DNA of 35,607 bases from an uncultured Bacilli bacterium (GTDB taxonomy: Bacteria > Bacillota_I > Bacilli_A > RF39 > UBA660). The translations under genes and the position numbers were made by a program. Where the stretch lies: positions 1 through 35,607 of the forward strand of contig CASRZA010000006.1 of NCBI GenBank assembly GCA_949439935.1, read 5' to 3'. Below the pieces are notes generated by a model, which had not been told where the DNA came from, searched no databases, and was given only the letters and a program-made list of their open reading frames with translations. This document shows, piece by piece, positions 27,359 through 35,317 of the stretch. Positions within the stretch are counted from its first letter, which is position 1, and each line of letters begins with the position of its first letter.

Positions 27359-27877
27359 TCATTTTTCAAATTGACTATAAGCCTTACTATCTTTCACGCC
27401 CTTGCCGTTATACAATCCTTCATATCTGATATTAGTTTCTCCGACCGGCGGAAAAAAGTAGATCTGACCTATCTCCATACCTTTATGAACTTTCGTAGGA
27501 GTGACACAGGTTATTCCCAAAGTCCAAGTACCTTTAAAACCTAAATTTCCACAACCACTACTCTGATGTACCGTCAAACCTATTCTGCCTATCGAACTTC
27601 TTCCACTGATTAGAGGAACGCATTTTTCGGTTTCAGTATATTCTCTCGTCTCTGCTAAATACAGAGTGTTCGGCGACAAAATATAACCGTCGTCTGGTAT
27701 ATCGATTATTCTAGTGTCGTTTTTCTTTTTGCAATCTAAAACGTCTTCGGTATAGACCAAAAGTTTATCTCCGAGTGTTAAATTATAACTGTTAGGATTG
27801 ACATTATTCTCATTGAACGGTTCAATTACTAGGCTTCCATTTTTTATGGCATTTATAATTTCTTGTCCAGAATACAT
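27359..27877 (-). CDS. dCTP deaminase-like paralog A, catalytic Glu replaced by Gly
   Basis: 172 residues of the Dcd/dUTPase trimer fold, with NPNSYNLTLGD, the nucleotide-binding SGRSSIGRIGL (Arg93, Ser94, Arg98, matching Arg110, Ser111 and Arg115 of E. coli Dcd) and GFKGTWTLGI. At the last motif, canonical deaminases have TLE (catalytic Glu138 in E. coli); here position 121 is Gly. Dcd converts dCTP to dUTP, which supplies dTMP synthesis. With the general base missing, this copy should be inactive alone. It lies 11 nt after paralog B and aligns with it without gaps over 172 residues. A non-catalytic or regulatory role, or a mixed oligomer with B, is inferred. Confidence 0.8.
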   Translation of the reverse strand: MYSGQEIINAIKNGSLVIEPFNENNVNPNSYNLTLGDKLLVYTEDVLDCKKKNDTRIIDIPDDGYILSPNTLYLAETREYTETEKCVPLISGRSSIGRIGLTVHQSSGCGNLGFKGTWTLGITCVTPTKVHKGMEIGQIYFFPPVGETNIRYEGLYNGKGVKDSKAYSQFEK

Positions 27878-27888
27878 CTAAGCACCTC

Positions 27889-28413
27889 TTACTCGAAAGT
27901 CTCATCTTCATAGATCCTACTTGCCGTAGTATCTACTTGGCCTAAATACTTACCGGTATATTTGATATTGTCATCGCCGACGATAGGATAATAACAGATG
28001 TGACAAACTTTCATATTTGGATATATTTTGACGGGTTTTATACAACAGATCTCCAAAGTCCAAGTACCTTTAAATCCATTGTCTCCAAAACCAGCCGTTA
28101 TATGTACAGTGACACCCAGAGCTGCGAGACTGAAACGTCCACATAAAAGGGGAACATAGTGTTCTGTCTCTGTATATTCAACTGTCCTAGACAAATACAA
28201 CTCTCCTGGTCTCAATATGTAACCCTCTTCGGGTATCTTTATCTTTCTAGTCTTATTTGGCTTCTTGCACTCCAAAACATCTTCTTCATAAACTAAAAGT
28301 TCATCACCCAAATGTAAGCAATAACTATTCGGTCCAAGGTTTGACCTATCGAATGGTTCAATCTTGATATTGCCTTCCTCTATTTGACGAAGTATCTCTT
28401 CTCCTGATAACAT
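27889..28413 (-). CDS. dCTP deaminase-like paralog B, keeps catalytic Glu but lacks Ser/Arg of the binding motif
   Basis: 174 residues, same fold as paralog A: GPNSYCLHLGD, CGRFSLAALGV, TVHITAGFGDNGFKGTWTLEI. Glu121 matches the catalytic Glu of Dcd, and the HxTAG loop is closer to canonical than in A. In the binding motif, however, Ser is Phe94 and the second Arg is Ala98. It is thus the mirror image of paralog A. It is the first gene of the pair, with GGGAGG upstream and a good promoter. Dcd active sites are built at subunit interfaces, so an A-B mixed oligomer could restore complete sites; this is inference. Confidence 0.8.
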   Translation of the reverse strand: MLSGEEILRQIEEGNIKIEPFDRSNLGPNSYCLHLGDELLVYEEDVLECKKPNKTRKIKIPEEGYILRPGELYLSRTVEYTETEHYVPLLCGRFSLAALGVTVHITAGFGDNGFKGTWTLEICCIKPVKIYPNMKVCHICYYPIVGDDNIKYTGKYLGQVDTTASRIYEDETFE

Positions 28414-28543: not shown

Positions 28544-29854
28544 TTATTTTTGTACTATTTTAATTAAATTTTCGATGTCTACCAAGTTTACACATTCCTC
28601 TTCGCCAGTTTCCATGTTCTTTACATTGAACTTACCTTCCTCTAGTTCGTTTTCACCTAATACTATGACATAAGGGATGTTCTCTCTATTTGCATACTCG
28701 AAACACTTCTTTATCTTCTTTCCACTCATCTCTAACTCGACTCTTAACCCCAAACCGCGTATCTCGTTTGCGATCTTCAAAGCTTCTACTTCTGTTTCCA
28801 TCGGAATGACATAGATGTCTACCAGTGAACGCTTTTTCTCTTCTTCTCTCATTTTTAATATCTCATAAATAGTAGATAAACCGAAGCTGACTCCGACTGC
28901 AGGATATATATTCCCGTCGTCGATAAAGTCTGTTATCATCCTATCATATCGGCCTCCACCACCTAAACTGCATGACAATTCTCCGTTTTTAGCATACACC
29001 TCGAAGACATTTCCGGTATAATAATCTTGACCTCTTGCCAAGGAAGATGAAAATGCAGTTTTATCTTCTAAATCTATGTTTTTAAGGATATCTCTTAGTT
29101 TTCCTACTTCGTCTAACCCTTTACATAACATTTCATTTTCGCAGTCTCTAAATTCACTTATTAGGCCCTTAAAATCCATCTTAAAGTAACTAAGCAATTT
29201 TTCTGCACTCTCGTTCGACAATCCCAAATTGCCAAGTTCTTCTACGATTTCTTCGAAAGTTATTTTATCTAGTTTGTCGATTATCGTTACGACCTTATCG
29301 ATCGTCTCCTCCGAAGTAAACCCTCCTACTTCTTGGATAAGACCTCTCATCAAATTTCTACTGTTGTATTTTACATATACATCTATTCCCAAGGCATCAT
29401 ACCCTTTGAACCACAAACTGATGAGTTCTGCTTCTATCAAGTTACCATCTAAACCGACGACATCGACATCACATTGCAAGAACTCTCTATCTCTTCCAAC
29501 TTTGACAGGACCATCTCTAAATACTTTTCCTATCTCATATCTTTTAAAAGGAAGACGAATATCTTTCGTCAGTGAGATATATTTTGCAAAAGGCACAGTC
29601 AAATCGTAGCGAAGACCGAGCTTTCTATCTCCTTGATCGGAAAGCTTATATATCTCGTTTAAAAGATCGTTACTCTCGTCGTACTTACCTGCGAGCAGAT
29701 CATAATAACAAAGAATGGGCGTCTCAAGTGGCTTGTAGCCATACTCGACGAATACCTTGCGAAGCGTATCTTGGATAAAGTACCTTATATTCTGTTCGCT
29801 CGGATTATAATCATAACTTCCCTTTACATTCTTTAATTCTACTTTTCTTTTCAT
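28544..29854 (-). CDS. hisS: histidyl-tRNA synthetase
   Basis: 436 residues, class II synthetase joining histidine to tRNA-His. The N-terminus has ELKNVKGSYDYNPSEQ, the form of the HisRS opening found in one branch of Firmicutes enzymes. Motif 1 and GLRYDLTVPFAKY follow, then motif 2 RYEIGKVFRDGPVKVGRDRE, the histidine-binding LARGQDYYTGNVFEVYA, and GGGGRYDRM (motif 3 region). The C-terminal anticodon-binding domain starts near VDIYVIPM. AGAGAGG lies 7 nt before the ATG at 29854. Upstream are a leader peptide ORF with three His codons and an intrinsic terminator, so expression is probably tuned to charged tRNA-His. It is transcribed alone from its own promoter, inside the end of the MFS gene. 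Confidence 0.96.
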   Translation of the reverse strand: MKRKVELKNVKGSYDYNPSEQNIRYFIQDTLRKVFVEYGYKPLETPILCYYDLLAGKYDESNDLLNEIYKLSDQGDRKLGLRYDLTVPFAKYISLTKDIRLPFKRYEIGKVFRDGPVKVGRDREFLQCDVDVVGLDGNLIEAELISLWFKGYDALGIDVYVKYNSRNLMRGLIQEVGGFTSEETIDKVVTIIDKLDKITFEEIVEELGNLGLSNESAEKLLSYFKMDFKGLISEFRDCENEMLCKGLDEVGKLRDILKNIDLEDKTAFSSSLARGQDYYTGNVFEVYAKNGELSCSLGGGGRYDRMITDFIDDGNIYPAVGVSFGLSTIYEILKMREEEKKRSLVDIYVIPMETEVEALKIANEIRGLGLRVELEMSGKKIKKCFEYANRENIPYVIVLGENELEEGKFNVKNMETGEEECVNLVDIENLIKIVQK

Positions 29855-29874
29855 AATTAACCTCTCTTTTCAAA

Positions 29875-29909
29875 TTAAAAACTATACGTCCATTTTCCCG
29901 TATAGTTTT
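29875..29909 (-). terminator. attenuator terminator in the hisS leader
   Basis: An 11-bp perfect stem (AAAACTATACG, 29909-29899, with CGTATAGTTTT) and a 10-nt loop, followed by a short T run, ends 21 nt before the hisS start codon, i.e. upstream of the gene it would control. Its loop contains GGAAAATG, complementary to CATTTTCC at 29933-29926, giving a mutually exclusive alternative fold. Confidence 0.75.
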
Positions 29910-29924
29910 AATTTTCTAACTCTT

Positions 29925-30036
29925 AGGAAAATGCACGACAAACTGCACTTCCTATGTAGGCCTATTTTCCTACTTTAGAAGTGCTACGCATGAATGATGA
30001 TGGTTTTCTTTTGCTTTTTTCATAATGCATTTTCCT
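29925..30036 (-). promoter_or_regulatory. hisS leader RNA with competing pairings
   Basis: Segment A, AGGAAAATGCA (30036-30026), holds the leader ORF's Shine-Dalgarno and is perfectly complementary over 11 nt to segment D (29935-29925). Between them, GCACTTC (29984-29978) pairs with GAAGTGC (29951-29945), enclosing an inner GTAGG/CCTAC stem. GGAAAAT occurs in A, in the inner hairpin loop and in the terminator loop, while its complement occurs once (in D), so D can pair with only one at a time. This is the geometry of a ribosome-controlled attenuator. Confidence 0.7.
29970..30023 (-). CDS. hisS leader peptide with three consecutive His codons
   Basis: A 17-residue ORF, MKKAKENHHHSCVALLK, starts 22 nt after the likely transcription start and has AAAGGA 9 nt upstream. 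The three CAT codons (30002-29994) precede a nested hairpin and a terminator in front of hisS. Ribosome stalling at His codons when charged tRNA-His is scarce would change which RNA pairings form. Such leader peptides control his operons in Proteobacteria; in Firmicutes aminoacyl-tRNA synthetase genes usually use T-boxes, and no T-box motif is seen here. An alternative ATG at 30030 in another frame encodes no His run and lies within the RBS spacer. Confidence 0.7.
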   Translation of the reverse strand: MKKAKENHHHSCVALLK

Positions 30037-30051
30037 TTCAAAACTATATAA

Positions 30052-30080
30052 ATTTTATCATATGGTCAGTCTTTTGTCAA
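30052..30080 (-). promoter_or_regulatory. SigA-type promoter of hisS
   Basis: Consensus TTGACA (30080-30075), 17-nt spacer, extended -10 TGATAAAAT (hexamer 30057-30052). The -35 lies in the last codons of the MFS gene. The start site would be near 30045. Confidence 0.75.
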
Positions 30081-31249
30081 ACTTCTGCCATTCAAACGTA
30101 TGCCTACCAAAGTCTCGGCCAGTATAGCCATCGCACATAATATCATGAGATAATTTATATATTCCATGCCGACTAGAAGGCAGACGATCATCAATAGGAT
30201 GTATCCAAATGCCCTCGAAATAGAAAAGATGAGATCCCTAAATAGATAATACTCTGTTTTAAATTCATTTTTAAGAACTTTATCGTTACTCAAATTGACT
30301 ACGATGACATTATCGATCCTGTTCACCAATAAAACGAAAGAATTGTTTACCAGAAGGTAAATGATCAAAGAGTTCCTCGAAGGATAAAATGCGAACAACA
30401 TCAAAGTTAAAAAACTTACTATTCCACTTATTAAGAGCCATTTATTATATTTTTCCTTTTTTAATTTGACAGTAAATACCACTAAAACTAAAAGAGACAA
30501 AATTGCACAGAGACTATCGACAAAACCAAAATTCAAGTTCGTCTTAAAGTTATTTATTTTAGATAAAGTGATTATGAGTCCCATCACACCTGAAGAATAA
30601 GTAAGCCCAGACAAGAACGGTATCCAAAGAGAACTAAAAATATCTTTATTCGTCTTTATGATAGAAACGAACTCTTTTAAATCGACGTCTTTATTTTTAA
30701 AACTTTCATCTTTCAATTGAATGCGACGATGAACATCAAGATAAAACACATAAAGAAAATTTTTCCAGTCTGAACATAAGTAAAATAAGAGAGCACTATG
30801 CCCAATAATATAGGCATCACGACACTTACTATTTTATTGACTATGTTGACGATTCCCTCGAACTTTTGTCTTCCATCGTTGGTGACTTTTTCTGAGTTCA
30901 AAAGGTTCTTAGGAAAATGATAAAATCCATCCGCAACGCCCTTTACGATCGCAACTAAATAGACGTACTCTGGGATCTTATCATTCAGTAGCATTATCAA
31001 ACTTATATACAAGGCCTGAAGTGCTATTCCTATCCTAAAATAGGGAACTTTTACATTTTTCTTCATAGGTCTTTTTATTAGGAAAAAAGTTATTCCTATA
31101 AACAAATATAGAGTAAGATAGTACTTCGCCAAAGGTAAAACTTCATAGTTACACACTTGAAAAAAATAAAAGACAAAGAAAGTATTGAAGTATACTCCCA
31201 CAATATTTTTAAGTATATCTATCGTAAAGATTGTTCCCTTTTCATTCAT
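30066..31249 (-). pseudogene. MFS-type transporter, frameshifted in the middle
   Basis: Two overlapping frames together give about 395 residues with 10-12 hydrophobic helices, the size of a major facilitator permease. The first frame (31249-30713) starts at MNEKGTIF with GTGGTGG upstream and contains AIVKGVADGFYHFPKNLL; it ends at MFIVAFN. The second resumes at IQLKDESFKNKDVDL and runs to 30066. The shift is near 30720-30735 and equals one missing base (or two extra). Substrate unknown. The second part has no RBS of its own. Either the gene is dead or the sequence has an indel error. Confidence 0.75.
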
Positions 31250-31263
31250 AACTACCACCACTT

Positions 31264-31355: not shown

Positions 31356-31733
31356 TTATCTATTTTCTTCCTTCAATGAAGAAAATATCCCCGTTAATTT
31401 TTTCGGTAGAGGTAGACCCATCCGGCCCCAGTTTTCAAGTATCGATAATGATTCGTTCGCAATGAAAGAGTAAAGGACTATAGTTCTTATAGCCATACTT
31501 TGATCCCACAACAACTTATCAGCTTGTACACTCAAAATCACGATCGACAAATACCCACATTTTTTTATTATACCGTTTAATCCGACTTTACTATTCAAGT
31601 TTTTTTCATAAATAGCCTTTAAAACACCCGTCATATAATCTAGCACTATTACCAAAAATAAACTGATTAAGAGAACGTCTATCCCTCCGAATAAAAACAT
31701 GCCGATTCCAAATATCACATTATAGATCTTCAT
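31356..31733 (-). CDS. phage holin (TcdE/holin-4 type)
   Basis: 125 residues with three or so hydrophobic helices and the family's hallmark segment VLDYMTGVLKAIYEKNLNSKVGLNGIIKKCGYL, then LYSFIANESLSILENWGRMGLPLP. Holins of this family form the membrane lesions that let the endolysin reach the wall. The start overlaps the endolysin stop by 4 nt (ATGA), giving coupled lysis genes. It is the last gene of the cassette. Confidence 0.9.
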   Translation of the reverse strand: MKIYNVIFGIGMFLFGGIDVLLISLFLVIVLDYMTGVLKAIYEKNLNSKVGLNGIIKKCGYLSIVILSVQADKLLWDQSMAIRTIVLYSFIANESLSILENWGRMGLPLPKKLTGIFSSLKEENR

Positions 31734-32500
31734 ATTTTTAACACCATGCCGACTTTGATCAGATTCGGATCATCTCCTATGACATCCTTATTTTTCTCGT
31801 AAAGCTTTTGCCACGTAGTGTTATATTTTTTTGCAATTCCACTTAGTGTATCCCCTTTCTCGACGATTATCGTTTTCAAAGGCAATTTTATCTTATCACC
31901 TGCGTAAATCAAATCTGGATTATCTATGCCATTTATTTCGGCAAGTAATTTATAATCGATTCCATATTTTGCAGCTATTTCGATCAAAGTATCTCCTTGC
32001 TTAACCGTATATATAATATGATCTTCAAAATTCTCAGCAGTAAGTCTCTTCTTCCCTAAAAGATAGTCTTCTGGGTTTACCCACTTTGTATTAACCTTTA
32101 CTCCATAATGTAGATGTGGACCTGTCGCATGGCCAGTCGCACCGACCTCGGCAAGAAGTGCACCTCTTTCCACTCTATCTCCCTTCGAAACGCGAATGCT
32201 ATTCTTCTTCAAATGATAATAAACTGTATATATATCTTTTTTATGTTTCAAAACGATATAATTTCCGCGCGATTGTTTCTCACTATAGCCAGAAACACCA
32301 TTGTATACTTCTGTCACTTCTCCATCTTCTGGTGCAATTACTATGGTTCCTGTCGTTAAATCGATCCCGTTATGAAACCCCTTTTCATACTTCTTAGTTA
32401 CATCATTATAAAAAGTCCTAGATCCAAACCTAGAACTTACATTAGAATAGTCATACCCCTTCAAAGGATTATACTTTATATTTTTTAATTTATAACTCAT
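31730..32500 (-). CDS. phage-type endolysin: M23 peptidase with two LysM domains
   Basis: 256 residues from the ATG at 32500 (AGGAGGAT 8 nt upstream; the extension to 32524 is rejected). The M23 zinc peptidase domain has HNGID (His43, Asp47), a YYHLKK strand, and GPHLHYGV (His129, His131). Two LysM domains follow (about 164-207, YTVKQGDTLIEIAAKYG; and 211-256, IIVEKGDTLSGIAKKYN). It should cut peptidoglycan cross-links and bind GlcNAc chains. No signal peptide is present, which, with the coupled holin, marks it as an endolysin and not a cell-wall housekeeping enzyme. Confidence 0.9.
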   Translation of the reverse strand: MSYKLKNIKYNPLKGYDYSNVSSRFGSRTFYNDVTKKYEKGFHNGIDLTTGTIVIAPEDGEVTEVYNGVSGYSEKQSRGNYIVLKHKKDIYTVYYHLKKNSIRVSKGDRVERGALLAEVGATGHATGPHLHYGVKVNTKWVNPEDYLLGKKRLTAENFEDHIIYTVKQGDTLIEIAAKYGIDYKLLAEINGIDNPDLIYAGDKIKLPLKTIIVEKGDTLSGIAKKYNTTWQKLYEKNKDVIGDDPNLIKVGMVLKI

Positions 32501-32539
32501 TAAAAAATCCTCCTCTCTTAGCATTTTTAATTGCTAACT

Positions 32540-33106
32540 TTAAGCGATCCTGTGCCAACGATTCACGACGACATATGGCTGGAGATTATTGTGAAGCTGA
32601 CTATTACCAGAATATTCAAGTGCTTCGTCAGTTCTTCCAACCCCGATATTATTGTTATTATATCCACTTGGATAACCCGTTTCATTCAAAGGCATAACAG
32701 TAGTTCTCACAACATTTAATATATGAGTATGTTTTGGCATTTCATTTACAGTTAAATTATGAGCTTTTTCGCCACCAGTTTTCCCTAATTGCAAAAATTC
32801 ACTTTGATTCTCGTCTTTACTTACTTGACCTTTAGAATCTAAAACCCAAGTACCCTGCCAACTCACATTCGGATCAAATTTCTCATCGGAGATCTCGACG
32901 TATATTCCGACAGGATAAATATCGTCGAATGTTAGTCCTGATGAAGAAGACAACTTCGTCGTGATAGAATTGACTACCAAGTTTCCCTCTCTATCTAAAT
33001 TAAATTTATCATTTTTTGAATTCATACTATTTATTGTCAGATTGTTTAACTCTGCATCTAAACCTGCACCAGTATTCGTAAAGATTTCATCTATAAAATC
33101 ATTCAT
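32540..33106 (-). CDS. phage tail-fibre/collar-type tip protein 1
   Basis: 188 residues. The N-terminal repeat-like segment (MNDFIDEIFTN ... NKFNLDREGNLVVNSITTK pattern) is shared with the other three paralogs. It leads into a baseplate/collar domain: DIYPVGIYVEISDEKFDPN, WQGTWVLDSKG, then GGEKAHNLTVNEMPKHTH and the C-terminal NNLQPYVVVNRWHRIA, typical of phage tail-collar and fibre-tip domains. Such domains end receptor-binding fibres. The ATG at 33106 has AAAGGA about 11 nt upstream. It ends 39 nt before the endolysin start. Confidence 0.8.
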   Translation of the reverse strand: MNDFIDEIFTNTGAGLDAELNNLTINSMNSKNDKFNLDREGNLVVNSITTKLSSSSGLTFDDIYPVGIYVEISDEKFDPNVSWQGTWVLDSKGQVSKDENQSEFLQLGKTGGEKAHNLTVNEMPKHTHILNVVRTTVMPLNETGYPSGYNNNNIGVGRTDEALEYSGNSQLHNNLQPYVVVNRWHRIA

Positions 33107-33141
33107 ATTTTTTCTTTTCCTTTCTTTTATTGTATAAATGA

Positions 33142-33212
33142 TTGAGTAGAAGCCATCTACTCAAAATAAAAATTGATCAGCTTTATATCTATTCTAAAAA
33201 AGAATACAACTA
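33142..33212 (-). repeat. intergenic repeat between fibre genes, copy 1
   Basis: Nearly identical to 33814-33886. It contains an 8-bp hairpin TTGAGTAG/CTACTCAA (33142-33164), the shared AAAATTGATCAGCTTTA stretch, and a TATTCT/AGAATA hairpin next to the stop codon. It marks duplication of whole fibre units including their spacers. Confidence 0.75.
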
Positions 33213-33782
33213 AGCGATCCTATGCCAACGATTTACGACGATGTAAGGTTGAAGATTTCCTGCTTCTCCTGTACCGGCATAATTGGTTCTCAAATTTGAA
33301 CTGCTGCCGAATTCGTTAATAAAATTGTGTTGCCATGCCCAATTAGTGACATTTAAGACCTCGCCCCCATCATCTGTACAAGATATAGAGACTCCCGATC
33401 CATCTGGTCTGTTGAAACGTATGTCATGATAGTGCTTCTGTGGATTTTTATCTCCTCCGACTTTGTTTATCGTATCAAATTCCACTTGATCGGGATCCTT
33501 TGATACAGTAATGAGTCCCTTAGTATCTAAAGCCCAAGTTCCTTTCCAGCTCACATTCGGATCGAACTGCTCATCGGAAGTCTCATAATATGTACCGACA
33601 GGATAAATATCGTCGAAGGTAAGTAAAGAGGACTCTGATGTTTTCGTCGTGATAGAGTTGACTATCAAGTTTCCTTCGCTGTCTAAATTAAACTTGTTAT
33701 CTTTTGAATTTATGCAAGTTACCACTAAGTCGTTTAACTTTACATTTAAACCATCTTCTGTATTTGATATAAAATCATCCAT
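33210..33782 (-). CDS. phage tail-fibre/collar-type tip protein 2
   Basis: 190 residues from the ATG at 33782 (AAAGGA upstream; the longer reading to 33836 is rejected). The N-terminus MDDFISNTEDGLNVKLNDL matches the paralogs in pattern but differs in sequence. The middle has YPVGTYYETSDEQFDPN and WKGTWALDTKG. The tip differs from protein 1 and is shared with protein 3 (HYHDIRFNRPDGSGVSIS, WAWQHNFINEF), ending NLQPYIVVNRWHRIA. The variable tip between conserved ends suggests a different receptor or partner for each copy. Confidence 0.8.
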   Translation of the reverse strand: MDDFISNTEDGLNVKLNDLVVTCINSKDNKFNLDSEGNLIVNSITTKTSESSLLTFDDIYPVGTYYETSDEQFDPNVSWKGTWALDTKGLITVSKDPDQVEFDTINKVGGDKNPQKHYHDIRFNRPDGSGVSISCTDDGGEVLNVTNWAWQHNFINEFGSSSNLRTNYAGTGEAGNLQPYIVVNRWHRIA

Positions 33783-33813
33783 AATTTTTTCCTTTCTTTT
33801 TTTATATAAACAA

Positions 33814-33886
33814 TTGAGTAAAATCCTTCTACTCAAAATAAAAATTGATCAGCTTTAATGTCTATTCTAAAAAAGAATATAATCTA
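33814..33886 (-). repeat. intergenic repeat between fibre genes, copy 2
   Basis: Second copy of the spacer seen at 33142-33212; identity continues into the 3' coding parts of fibre genes 2 and 3. Confidence 0.75.
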
Positions 33887-34468
33887 AGCGATCCTATGCC
33901 AACGATTTACGACGATGTAAGGTTGAAGATTTCCTGCTTCTCCTGTACCGGCATAATTAGTTCTAAGATGAGAACTGCTATCGAATTCATTAAAGAAATT
34001 GTGCTGCCATGCCCAATTAGTGATATTTAAAACCTCGCCCCCATCTCCTGTACAAGAGATGGAAACTCCTAAACCGTCTGGTCTATTGAAACGTATGTCA
34101 TGATAGTGCTGCTGTGGACTCTTATTTCCACCAACTTTGTTTATCGTATCAAATTCCACTTGATCAGGATCTTTTGATACAGTCGCACGACCTTTAGTAT
34201 CTAAAACCCAAGTACCTTGCCAACTCACATTCGGATCGAAGTGTTCATCAGAAGTCTCATAATATACCCCGACAGGATAAATATCGTCAAATGTTAGTCC
34301 TGATGAAGAAGACAACTTCGTCGTGATAGAATTGACTACCAAGTTTCCCTCTCTATCTAAATTAAATTTATCATTTTTTGAATTCATACTATTTATTGTC
34401 AGGTTATTTAACTCTGCATCAAAACCGACGTCTGTATTCGTAAAAATTTCATCTATAAAATCATTCAT
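33884..34468 (-). CDS. phage tail-fibre/collar-type tip protein 3, a chimera of 1 and 2
   Basis: 194 residues. The N-terminal half is almost identical to protein 1 (MNDFIDEIFTNT, ELNNLTINSMNSKNDKF, KLSSSSGLTFDDIYPVG), also at DNA level. From about residue 95 (ATVSKDPDQVEFDTINKVGG) to the end it is almost identical to protein 2 (HYHDIRFNRPDG, WAWQHNFFNEF, NLQPYIVVNRWHRIA). The switch lies between the WQGTW strand and the tip. This is the pattern of recombination between tandem copies. Receptor-binding tip function is inferred from the family. Confidence 0.8.
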   Translation of the reverse strand: MNDFIDEIFTNTDVGFDAELNNLTINSMNSKNDKFNLDREGNLVVNSITTKLSSSSGLTFDDIYPVGVYYETSDEHFDPNVSWQGTWVLDTKGRATVSKDPDQVEFDTINKVGGNKSPQQHYHDIRFNRPDGLGVSISCTGDGGEVLNITNWAWQHNFFNEFDSSSHLRTNYAGTGEAGNLQPYIVVNRWHRIA

Positions 34469-34510
34469 ATTATTTCTTTTCCTTTCTTTTAATTTTTTTT
34501 CATTTAAAAT

Positions 34511-34530
34511 GGATAGCCTTTACGCTATCC
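34511..34530. other. 7-bp hairpin between fibre genes 3 and 4
   Basis: GGATAGC/GCTATCC with a 6-nt loop. On the minus strand it is followed by ATTTTAAAT, so it may be a weak terminator or an RNA-stabilising hairpin. Confidence 0.45.
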
Positions 34531-34615
34531 AGGATCAAAATATTTCATATTTAAAAACACCAACCATAAACAAAAAACGAATCTATCCCTAGTCAATTCA
34601 TTTAAATTAATCAAA

Positions 34616-34640
34616 GAAAAACGACGATAAACTCATCGTC
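34616..34640 (-). terminator. probable terminator after fibre gene 4
   Basis: A 6-bp stem GACGAT/ATCGTC with a 6-nt loop followed by GTTTTTC on the minus strand, 18 nt after the stop at 34658. It would allow graded expression of the later copies. Confidence 0.6.
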
Positions 34641-34657
34641 TTATAAGTTTTAATTAC

Positions 34658-35212
34658 TTACTTCACTCTTTCCCAACAAAAAGCCACTTCATAAGGTGGC
34701 ATATTATTGTGTGGTTGATTATTACCAACAGCATTTTCCCAAACATAATTTTCTTTTCCACTACCAGGAGCCTGAATATTATCGATAGTTTCTACTCCAT
34801 ATCCAGAATCATAAAAAGTCTTAACAGTGTATCCATAACAATGAGTGTGTCTAGGTATCTCCCCTTCTGTTAAAACGTGCTCCTCTTCTCCACCTTTAGT
34901 TCCTGCAAGAAATTTTTCGCCTGCTGCCAATACAAAAACATCTTTTATTCTTTTCCATTCACCTTCAAAAGTATTATTCAACTCCTCCGAGATATCATAT
35001 CTATTCCAATAGATTGTTCCCACTGGAAAATAAATTTTTTGTGGTTGGTCAATTCCTTTCGTAGCCGTTATTGAATTTACAATTAGATTCCCTTCACAAT
35101 CTAAATTAAATTTATTATTTTTTGAATTTATGCAATTTACTGTCAGGTTGTTAAACTCTCCATTTAAACCGTCCTCAGTTTTCGTAAATGCATCTAAGAT
35201 ATAATCTTTCAT
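34658..35212 (-). CDS. phage tail-fibre/collar-type tip protein 4
   Basis: 184 residues from the ATG at 35212 (GAAGGAAA upstream; the reading from 35284 has no site). MKDYILDAFTKTEDGLNGEFNNL and the NNKFNLDCEGNLIVNSIT segment match the other copies. The tip is the most divergent: YFPVGTIYWNRYDISEELN, GEWKRIKDVFVLAAGEKFLAG, GGEEEHVLTEGEIPRHTH, ending HNNMPPYEVAFCWERVK. That is the classic tail-collar domain with its HTH metal-type motif. It is the first fibre gene in transcription order. Confidence 0.8.
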   Translation of the reverse strand: MKDYILDAFTKTEDGLNGEFNNLTVNCINSKNNKFNLDCEGNLIVNSITATKGIDQPQKIYFPVGTIYWNRYDISEELNNTFEGEWKRIKDVFVLAAGEKFLAGTKGGEEEHVLTEGEIPRHTHCYGYTVKTFYDSGYGVETIDNIQAPGSGKENYVWENAVGNNQPHNNMPPYEVAFCWERVK

Positions 35213-35317
35213 AAAATTTCCTTCTTTCTTTCTTTTATTTTTTTTTATAGATAAAAACAGTTGAATGTGGTCATTCCAACGCAAAGTACTTCAAACTCAA
35301 AAACTCTCTTTAAGCAA

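Follow-up and report, generated by a model that had tools for sequence, protein, structure and literature searches.

How transcription of hisS is controlled in an uncultured Bacilli bacterium is the question raised by the window analysed here, a 35,607-nt stretch of contig CASRZA010000006.1, in which the gene is preceded by a short open reading frame (ORF) with a run of histidine codons and by an intrinsic terminator. Our analysis makes it highly probable that a ribosome-mediated transcription attenuator makes expression of this hisS depend on charged tRNA-His. The promoter, the 17-codon ORF, the three CAT codons, a nested hairpin, the terminator and hisS, which had been noted in a first-pass annotation of the sequence, were all confirmed on the minus strand, as was its count of three GGAAAAT motifs and one ATTTTCC. 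The following features make up the element.

30052-30080, minus strand: sigma-70-type promoter, TTGACA (30080-30075), a 17-nt spacer and TAAAAT (30057-30052); near-consensus (11 of 12 matches), overlapping the end of the upstream MFS-like ORF.
30026-30036, minus strand: leader RBS arm AGGAAAATGCA, able to pair with B; a genus-specific add-on.
29970-30023, minus strand: leader ORF of 17 codons, MKKAKENHHHSCVALLK and a stop codon, with equivalents in related elements (67 elements in total).
29994-30002, minus strand: CAT CAT CAT, three consecutive His codons, the presumed sensor.
29978-29984, minus strand: segment A (GCACTTC), the final leader codons, lying under a ribosome positioned at the stop codon.
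29945-29951, minus strand: segment A' (GAAGTGC), partner of A or, extended to 29944-29953, of B.
29925-29935, minus strand: segment B (TGCATTTTCCT), partner of A', of the terminator 5' arm and loop, or of the leader RBS.
29878-29909, minus strand: intrinsic terminator hairpin AAAACTATACG-GGAAAATGGA-CGTATAGTTTT, whose loop GGAAAATG (29898-29891) pairs with B.
29872-29881, minus strand: U-rich terminator tail (TTTTTAATTT), overlapping the stem end.
28544-29854, minus strand: hisS, histidine--tRNA ligase of PRK12420-like type, with its ATG at 29854.

The region folds at -49 kcal/mol compared to a shuffle mean of -30.5 kcal/mol (z = -5.84), and none of 200 dinucleotide shuffles folded as well. The strongest pairing in the window is the 11-bp complementarity between the RBS arm (30036-30026) and B (29935-29925), reported in the first-pass annotation and reproduced here (-17.1 kcal/mol, p = 0.003). 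The same annotation had proposed mutually exclusive pairings that include the terminator loop, and B does pair with this loop, but the key helix A':B, formed by AGGAAGTGCA (29953-29944) with B, had been overlooked; this helix excludes RBS:B as well as the pairing of B with the terminator loop, and it is kept in relatives.

The hisS product scored 332.5 bits against TIGR00442 (cut-off 286.75), with PRK12420 as the nearest model, below its own cut-off, and the gene was the sole hisS match found in a genome that is 91% complete. An Rfam search of the window returned no family at the gathering score and, when relaxed, chance-level families only; likewise, the covariance model of the Rfam His_leader (RF00514) had no match in the window. 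Control of this hisS by a T-box or another RNA that binds uncharged tRNA could be expected from the T-box sequences found before hisS in other family members (GGTGGCACCGCG or close variants in L010, L011, L012, L016 and L018) and from the eight T-boxes at other places in the source genome, but RF00230 was unmatched in the window at both gathering and relaxed thresholds and the leader contains no T-box sequence, which refutes this explanation at the sequence level and leaves it a negligible probability. Since eight T-boxes occur elsewhere in the genome, the T-box system is available to this organism, yet unused before hisS.

Comparison of the regions upstream of hisS in 60 relatives and in 80 named loci having the same HisS type revealed 17 His-run leaders, each with 2 to 5 His codons. 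A single relative from the same genus (L003) was found to have one; the remainder come from other genera of the family, Brevibacillus thermoruber (L043), a Clostridiaceae MAG (L045), Bacillaceae and Paenibacillus. The element was absent before two further hisS genes of the same genus (L002/G004 and L004/G006), and some family members, including these two, carry neither a T-box nor a His leader before hisS. The hisS of L013 belongs to a lineage otherwise with T-boxes but carries a His leader, indicating that control has switched among close relatives; hisS can be compared among such relatives under a T-box, a leader peptide or no attenuator. Bacillaceae HisS proteins related to that of the window are likewise encoded by genes with His-run leaders. 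In these Bacillaceae leaders (L046, L047, L048, L051, L053 and L060) the HHH run lies just before the stop codon and A:A' is present as a long hairpin, while, unlike in the window's family, no clear B or antiterminator segment was found, and the switch may work differently there.

An alignment of seven members defined the order of the core segments, with A closing the leader ORF and A' and then B following it. A covariance model of this core with segments chosen by eye (R1) matched in 38 of 386 family genomes, and R3, a wider model based on 25 diverse members, matched in 65 of the 386 at E <= 0.02, with E < 1e-4 for about 60 matches, all E-values of R1, R2 and R3 being rough, the genomes mostly fragmented and some incomplete, and the members related, so that these counts represent non-independent events. 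One antisense match (L125, minus strand) was included in A5, an alignment of 52 rows, and through it in R2, but not in R3. When class and phylum were searched with R2 and R3, the matches outside the family had E values of 5e-4 to 0.01 and were treated as chance because none had a codon-run leader. L197, with neither leader nor terminator, was dropped as a member, and an exact-pattern scan of viral contigs gave no match. The Brevibacillus element is itself one of the sequences from which R1 was built, and the Paenibacillus elements (L054, L059), unmatched by R1, have the same folding scheme.

Because A' is common to both, A:A' and A':B are mutually exclusive, and both helices are maintained by covariation. 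Among the 25 diverse members 95% of cells were paired in A:A', with five of eight pairs changed on both sides, and 94% in A':B, which is kept by compensatory changes; in neither case did any of 500 shuffles reach the observed score, and slid controls gave 21-57%. Because the A':B structure of R1 guided the fitting of the alignments A5 and A6, the A':B counts lean towards this helix, whereas A:A' lies outside that structure. The three segments also change together: most His members have GCACUUG/CAAGUGC/GUGCUUG as A/A'/B, and the Trp group has CACUUAUA/UAUAAGUG/UGCUUAUA. A terminator was found in 68 elements, and the pairing of B with it exceeded shuffles at p < 0.05 in 43 of the 68, being borderline for the window alone (p = 0.05). 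Judged from sequence comparison, the conserved core is A:A', A':B and B:terminator, with the 11-bp RBS:B pairing outside it. Conservation in relatives, which the first-pass annotation had put forward as a check, accordingly held for the His run, the terminator and compensatory changes in A:A' and A':B, while the 11-bp pairing proved to be limited to the genus. The element thus comprises an RBS, a predicted short ORF and a cognate codon run, mutually exclusive helices with compensatory change, and an intrinsic terminator with a competing antiterminator before the gene. The upstream gene lies on the same strand as hisS and intergenic terminators are common, but the notion of an ordinary leader with the terminator of that upstream gene, in which His run and pairings coincide by chance, is contradicted by the covariation, spacing and codon concordance of an element shared by many genera, and by a promoter placed between the upstream gene and the terminator, and its probability is minute.

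For the codon concordance, the genes behind the core were named by HMM or similarity. His codons were present in 22 of 22 hisS members with a called leader and in both hisG members (L111 and L116), Trp codons in the leader of the single trpS member (MKKRTVNNLWRHIGNTYTSRY) and Cys-Cys codons in that of the single cysS member (MLLYRNTCCMKSMHLSL); cognate codons hence precede every downstream gene of clear amino-acid specificity. One of the leaders, L139 (the copy of L013), had received an automatic Trp label and was counted as His, since its leader MNRLWKQHIHHLIMGA precedes hisS. The earlier proposal of a His leader peptide that attenuates transcription of hisS is thereby supported by the relatives. 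Arg runs (RRR or RRRR) were found before ten M20 hydrolases and one gene without assigned function, and W-[RH]-H leaders precede the core in nine elements (L154, L156, L180, L183, L184, L190, L193, L194 and L195), one leading to trpS and eight to M20 hydrolases. In the latter eight Trp is the likely sensed residue, because the trpS leader is nearly identical, with Arg or His as alternatives.

A small-molecule riboswitch or a protein-binding leader with an incidental ORF would be in line with the strong conservation of the core sequence around A' and B. However, the same core is combined with codon runs that change with the downstream gene (His, Arg, Trp or Cys), for which a single ligand cannot account, the three-way pairing itself explains the conservation, and the core has no Rfam aptamer match, so that we regard this explanation as very improbable. 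Instead, the data suggest that one A/A'/B/terminator chassis probably serves as a modular, codon-swappable attenuator in this uncultured Bacilli family, in which His, Arg, Trp and Cys runs would control cognate synthetase, biosynthetic and peptide-hydrolysing genes, and that, as part of the same reading, it is a leader-peptide equivalent of the T-box, the two occurring side by side within genomes. Leader-peptide attenuators are usually seen as separate inventions, one per operon, whereas here a single scaffold with swapped codons would be used in a T-box-using lineage. The codon run would then label genes of unassigned function with the amino acid to which they respond, which amounts to a direct and testable functional assignment.

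Several such genes were observed. Arg-run leaders (e.g. MKLFLQNNRRRYR) stand before ArgE/DapE-type M20-family hydrolases in L144, L150, L152, L155, L185, L187, L188, L189, L196 and L198. His leaders stand before PRTase-like genes (L113, L121, L125, L133, L135, L136, L141, L143, L146 and L179), before a 466-aa protein without Pfam match (L137, L140, L147 and L151) and before GNAT-like acetyltransferase genes (L118, L181, L182 and L186). These three groups are candidates for functions in histidine metabolism or salvage, and would belong to histidine metabolism if the modular chassis is real. Another His leader precedes a gene for a weakly histidine-racemase-like protein (L149:1245-2021, minus strand; NF052224 and NF033599, both below cut-off).

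In the enterobacterial his and trp attenuators, the position of the ribosome on cognate codons selects between alternative helices, one outcome being an intrinsic terminator. The element before hisS would follow the same logic, in which stalling leads to read-through and completion of the leader to termination, although the window sequence is unrelated, is unmatched by RF00514 and would regulate a synthetase gene. Transcription of the leader by RNA polymerase would proceed together with translation of the 17-codon ORF by a ribosome. When charged tRNA-His is scarce, the ribosome would stall on CAT CAT CAT without its front edge reaching A, A:A' would form, and the free B could pair with the terminator loop and 5' side, allowing read-through into hisS. 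When charged tRNA-His is ample, a ribosome at the stop codon would cover A, so that A':B would pair, the terminator would fold and transcription would stop. In the genus of the window, the additional RBS:B helix probably causes further termination on transcripts whose leader is untranslated. The parts, their conservation, the covariation of A:A' and A':B, the codon/gene concordance and the spacing on which this scheme is based derive from sequence and comparison.

Which of the pairings terminates had been considered undecidable from the sequence by the first-pass annotation; for the conserved core, anatomy and folding at stall and stop positions now point to read-through upon stalling and termination upon completion of the leader, while for the window itself this polarity is less certain owing to RBS:B. 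The distance from the first sensor codon to A is 16-18 nt in 51 of 67 members (17 nt in the window and in 37 of the 67), which leaves A clear of a ribosome stalled on the codons, yet covered by one at the stop codon. When RNA upstream of the ribosome front was removed from the partition function of the window, the terminator probability did not exceed 0.10 as long as the front lay at nt 1-40, and was 1.0 from nt 43 onwards; the His codons at nt 22-30 place a stalled front at about nt 33-41 and the stop codon at about nt 63, assuming a front about 11 nt beyond the start of the A-site. At equilibrium, the terminator probability (L054 left out) was unchanged for the strong terminators of L043, L045, L061 and L065, and the transcript was therefore also folded with its end before the 3' terminator arm. 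Under these conditions A':B had on average 0.5 pairs in the stalled state compared to 10.8 at the stop codon over 67 members, and B:terminator 12.0 compared to 5.7, with a B:terminator difference below 3 pairs or reversed in 20 of the 67. Folding of L003 distinguished stall from stop weakly.

The main uncertainty for the window itself is RBS:B, which could override the switch there. With the RBS left free and a ribosome on the His codons, B pairs with the RBS in preference to the terminator, which still forms; indeed, a free RBS keeps B bound wherever the ribosome was placed, in a thermodynamic model that ignores the bulk of the ribosome. These results, together with the rank of RBS:B as the strongest pairing and its weaker form in L003, would suit a leader that is dominated by RBS:B and senses its own translation initiation, with the His codons being secondary. 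Outside the genus, however, the pairing is not kept: it exceeded chance in just 4 of 67 members, approximately the chance rate, and was rejected as part of the general mechanism and retained as a genus-specific add-on. Moreover, the window retains its His codons and the 17-nt spacing to A, and a helix closed around the ribosome may be sterically blocked, so that this overridden control is unlikely, though less so than a T-box, a riboswitch or an ordinary leader. Within the preferred attenuator, RBS:B may enforce termination when the leader is untranslated or narrow the conditions of read-through.

The window is not the first leader of its type, since Naville and Gautheret (2010; PMC2965389) had already described a His leader before a hisS paralog, hisS*, and before hisZ in Bacillus. 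As described there, the Bacillus leader likewise combines a short His-run ORF with an intrinsic terminator and replaces a T-box, and a His-run leader with terminator before a hisS homologue is also what we find in the window, where, in contrast to Bacillus, hisS is the only copy found and not a second one. The available text of that report gives neither a segment-level mechanism nor a scaffold common to other amino acids. Similarly, attenuators of his operons with a His-rich leader, terminator and antiterminator have been described for Firmicutes, namely in the B. cereus group, Peptostreptococcaceae and Erysipelotrichales (Ashniev et al., 2022; PMC9413887), and our hisG members L111 and L116 may be of the same kind; hisS and a scaffold common to other codons do not appear in the main text of that study. 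In placing His leader peptides in proteobacterial his operons, the first-pass annotation was in this respect incomplete. Candidate ribosome-mediated attenuators with cognate codons were also proposed before cysS in Rhodobacterales (uORFC-8-2) and before aroF in Acholeplasma (uORFC-13-1) (PMC8632094), which come from other lineages and, by their descriptions, are distinct motifs that each carry a single type of codon. In open-licence papers, supplements aside, we found no account of different codon runs on a common scaffold. The window hence represents a further His leader of a known type, and what appears to be new is the use of a single scaffold for hisS and hisG with His codons, for trpS with Trp, for cysS with Cys-Cys and for M20 hydrolase genes with Arg runs.

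The surroundings of hisS were also inspected. Directly downstream lie two dCTP-deaminase-like genes side by side (27359-28413, minus strand; PF22769). Upstream, two overlapping ORFs in different frames (30066-31261, minus strand), each with a weak MFS similarity (PF07690, below cut-off), resemble a single transporter gene split by a frameshift, whose end is overlapped by the hisS promoter. Further upstream (31356-35284, minus strand), a holin (PF05105), a LysM/peptidase-like ORF and several similar ORFs, of which the one tested matched PF21939 (Gp10_C), point to a prophage or a tail-like remnant adjoining the hisS region.
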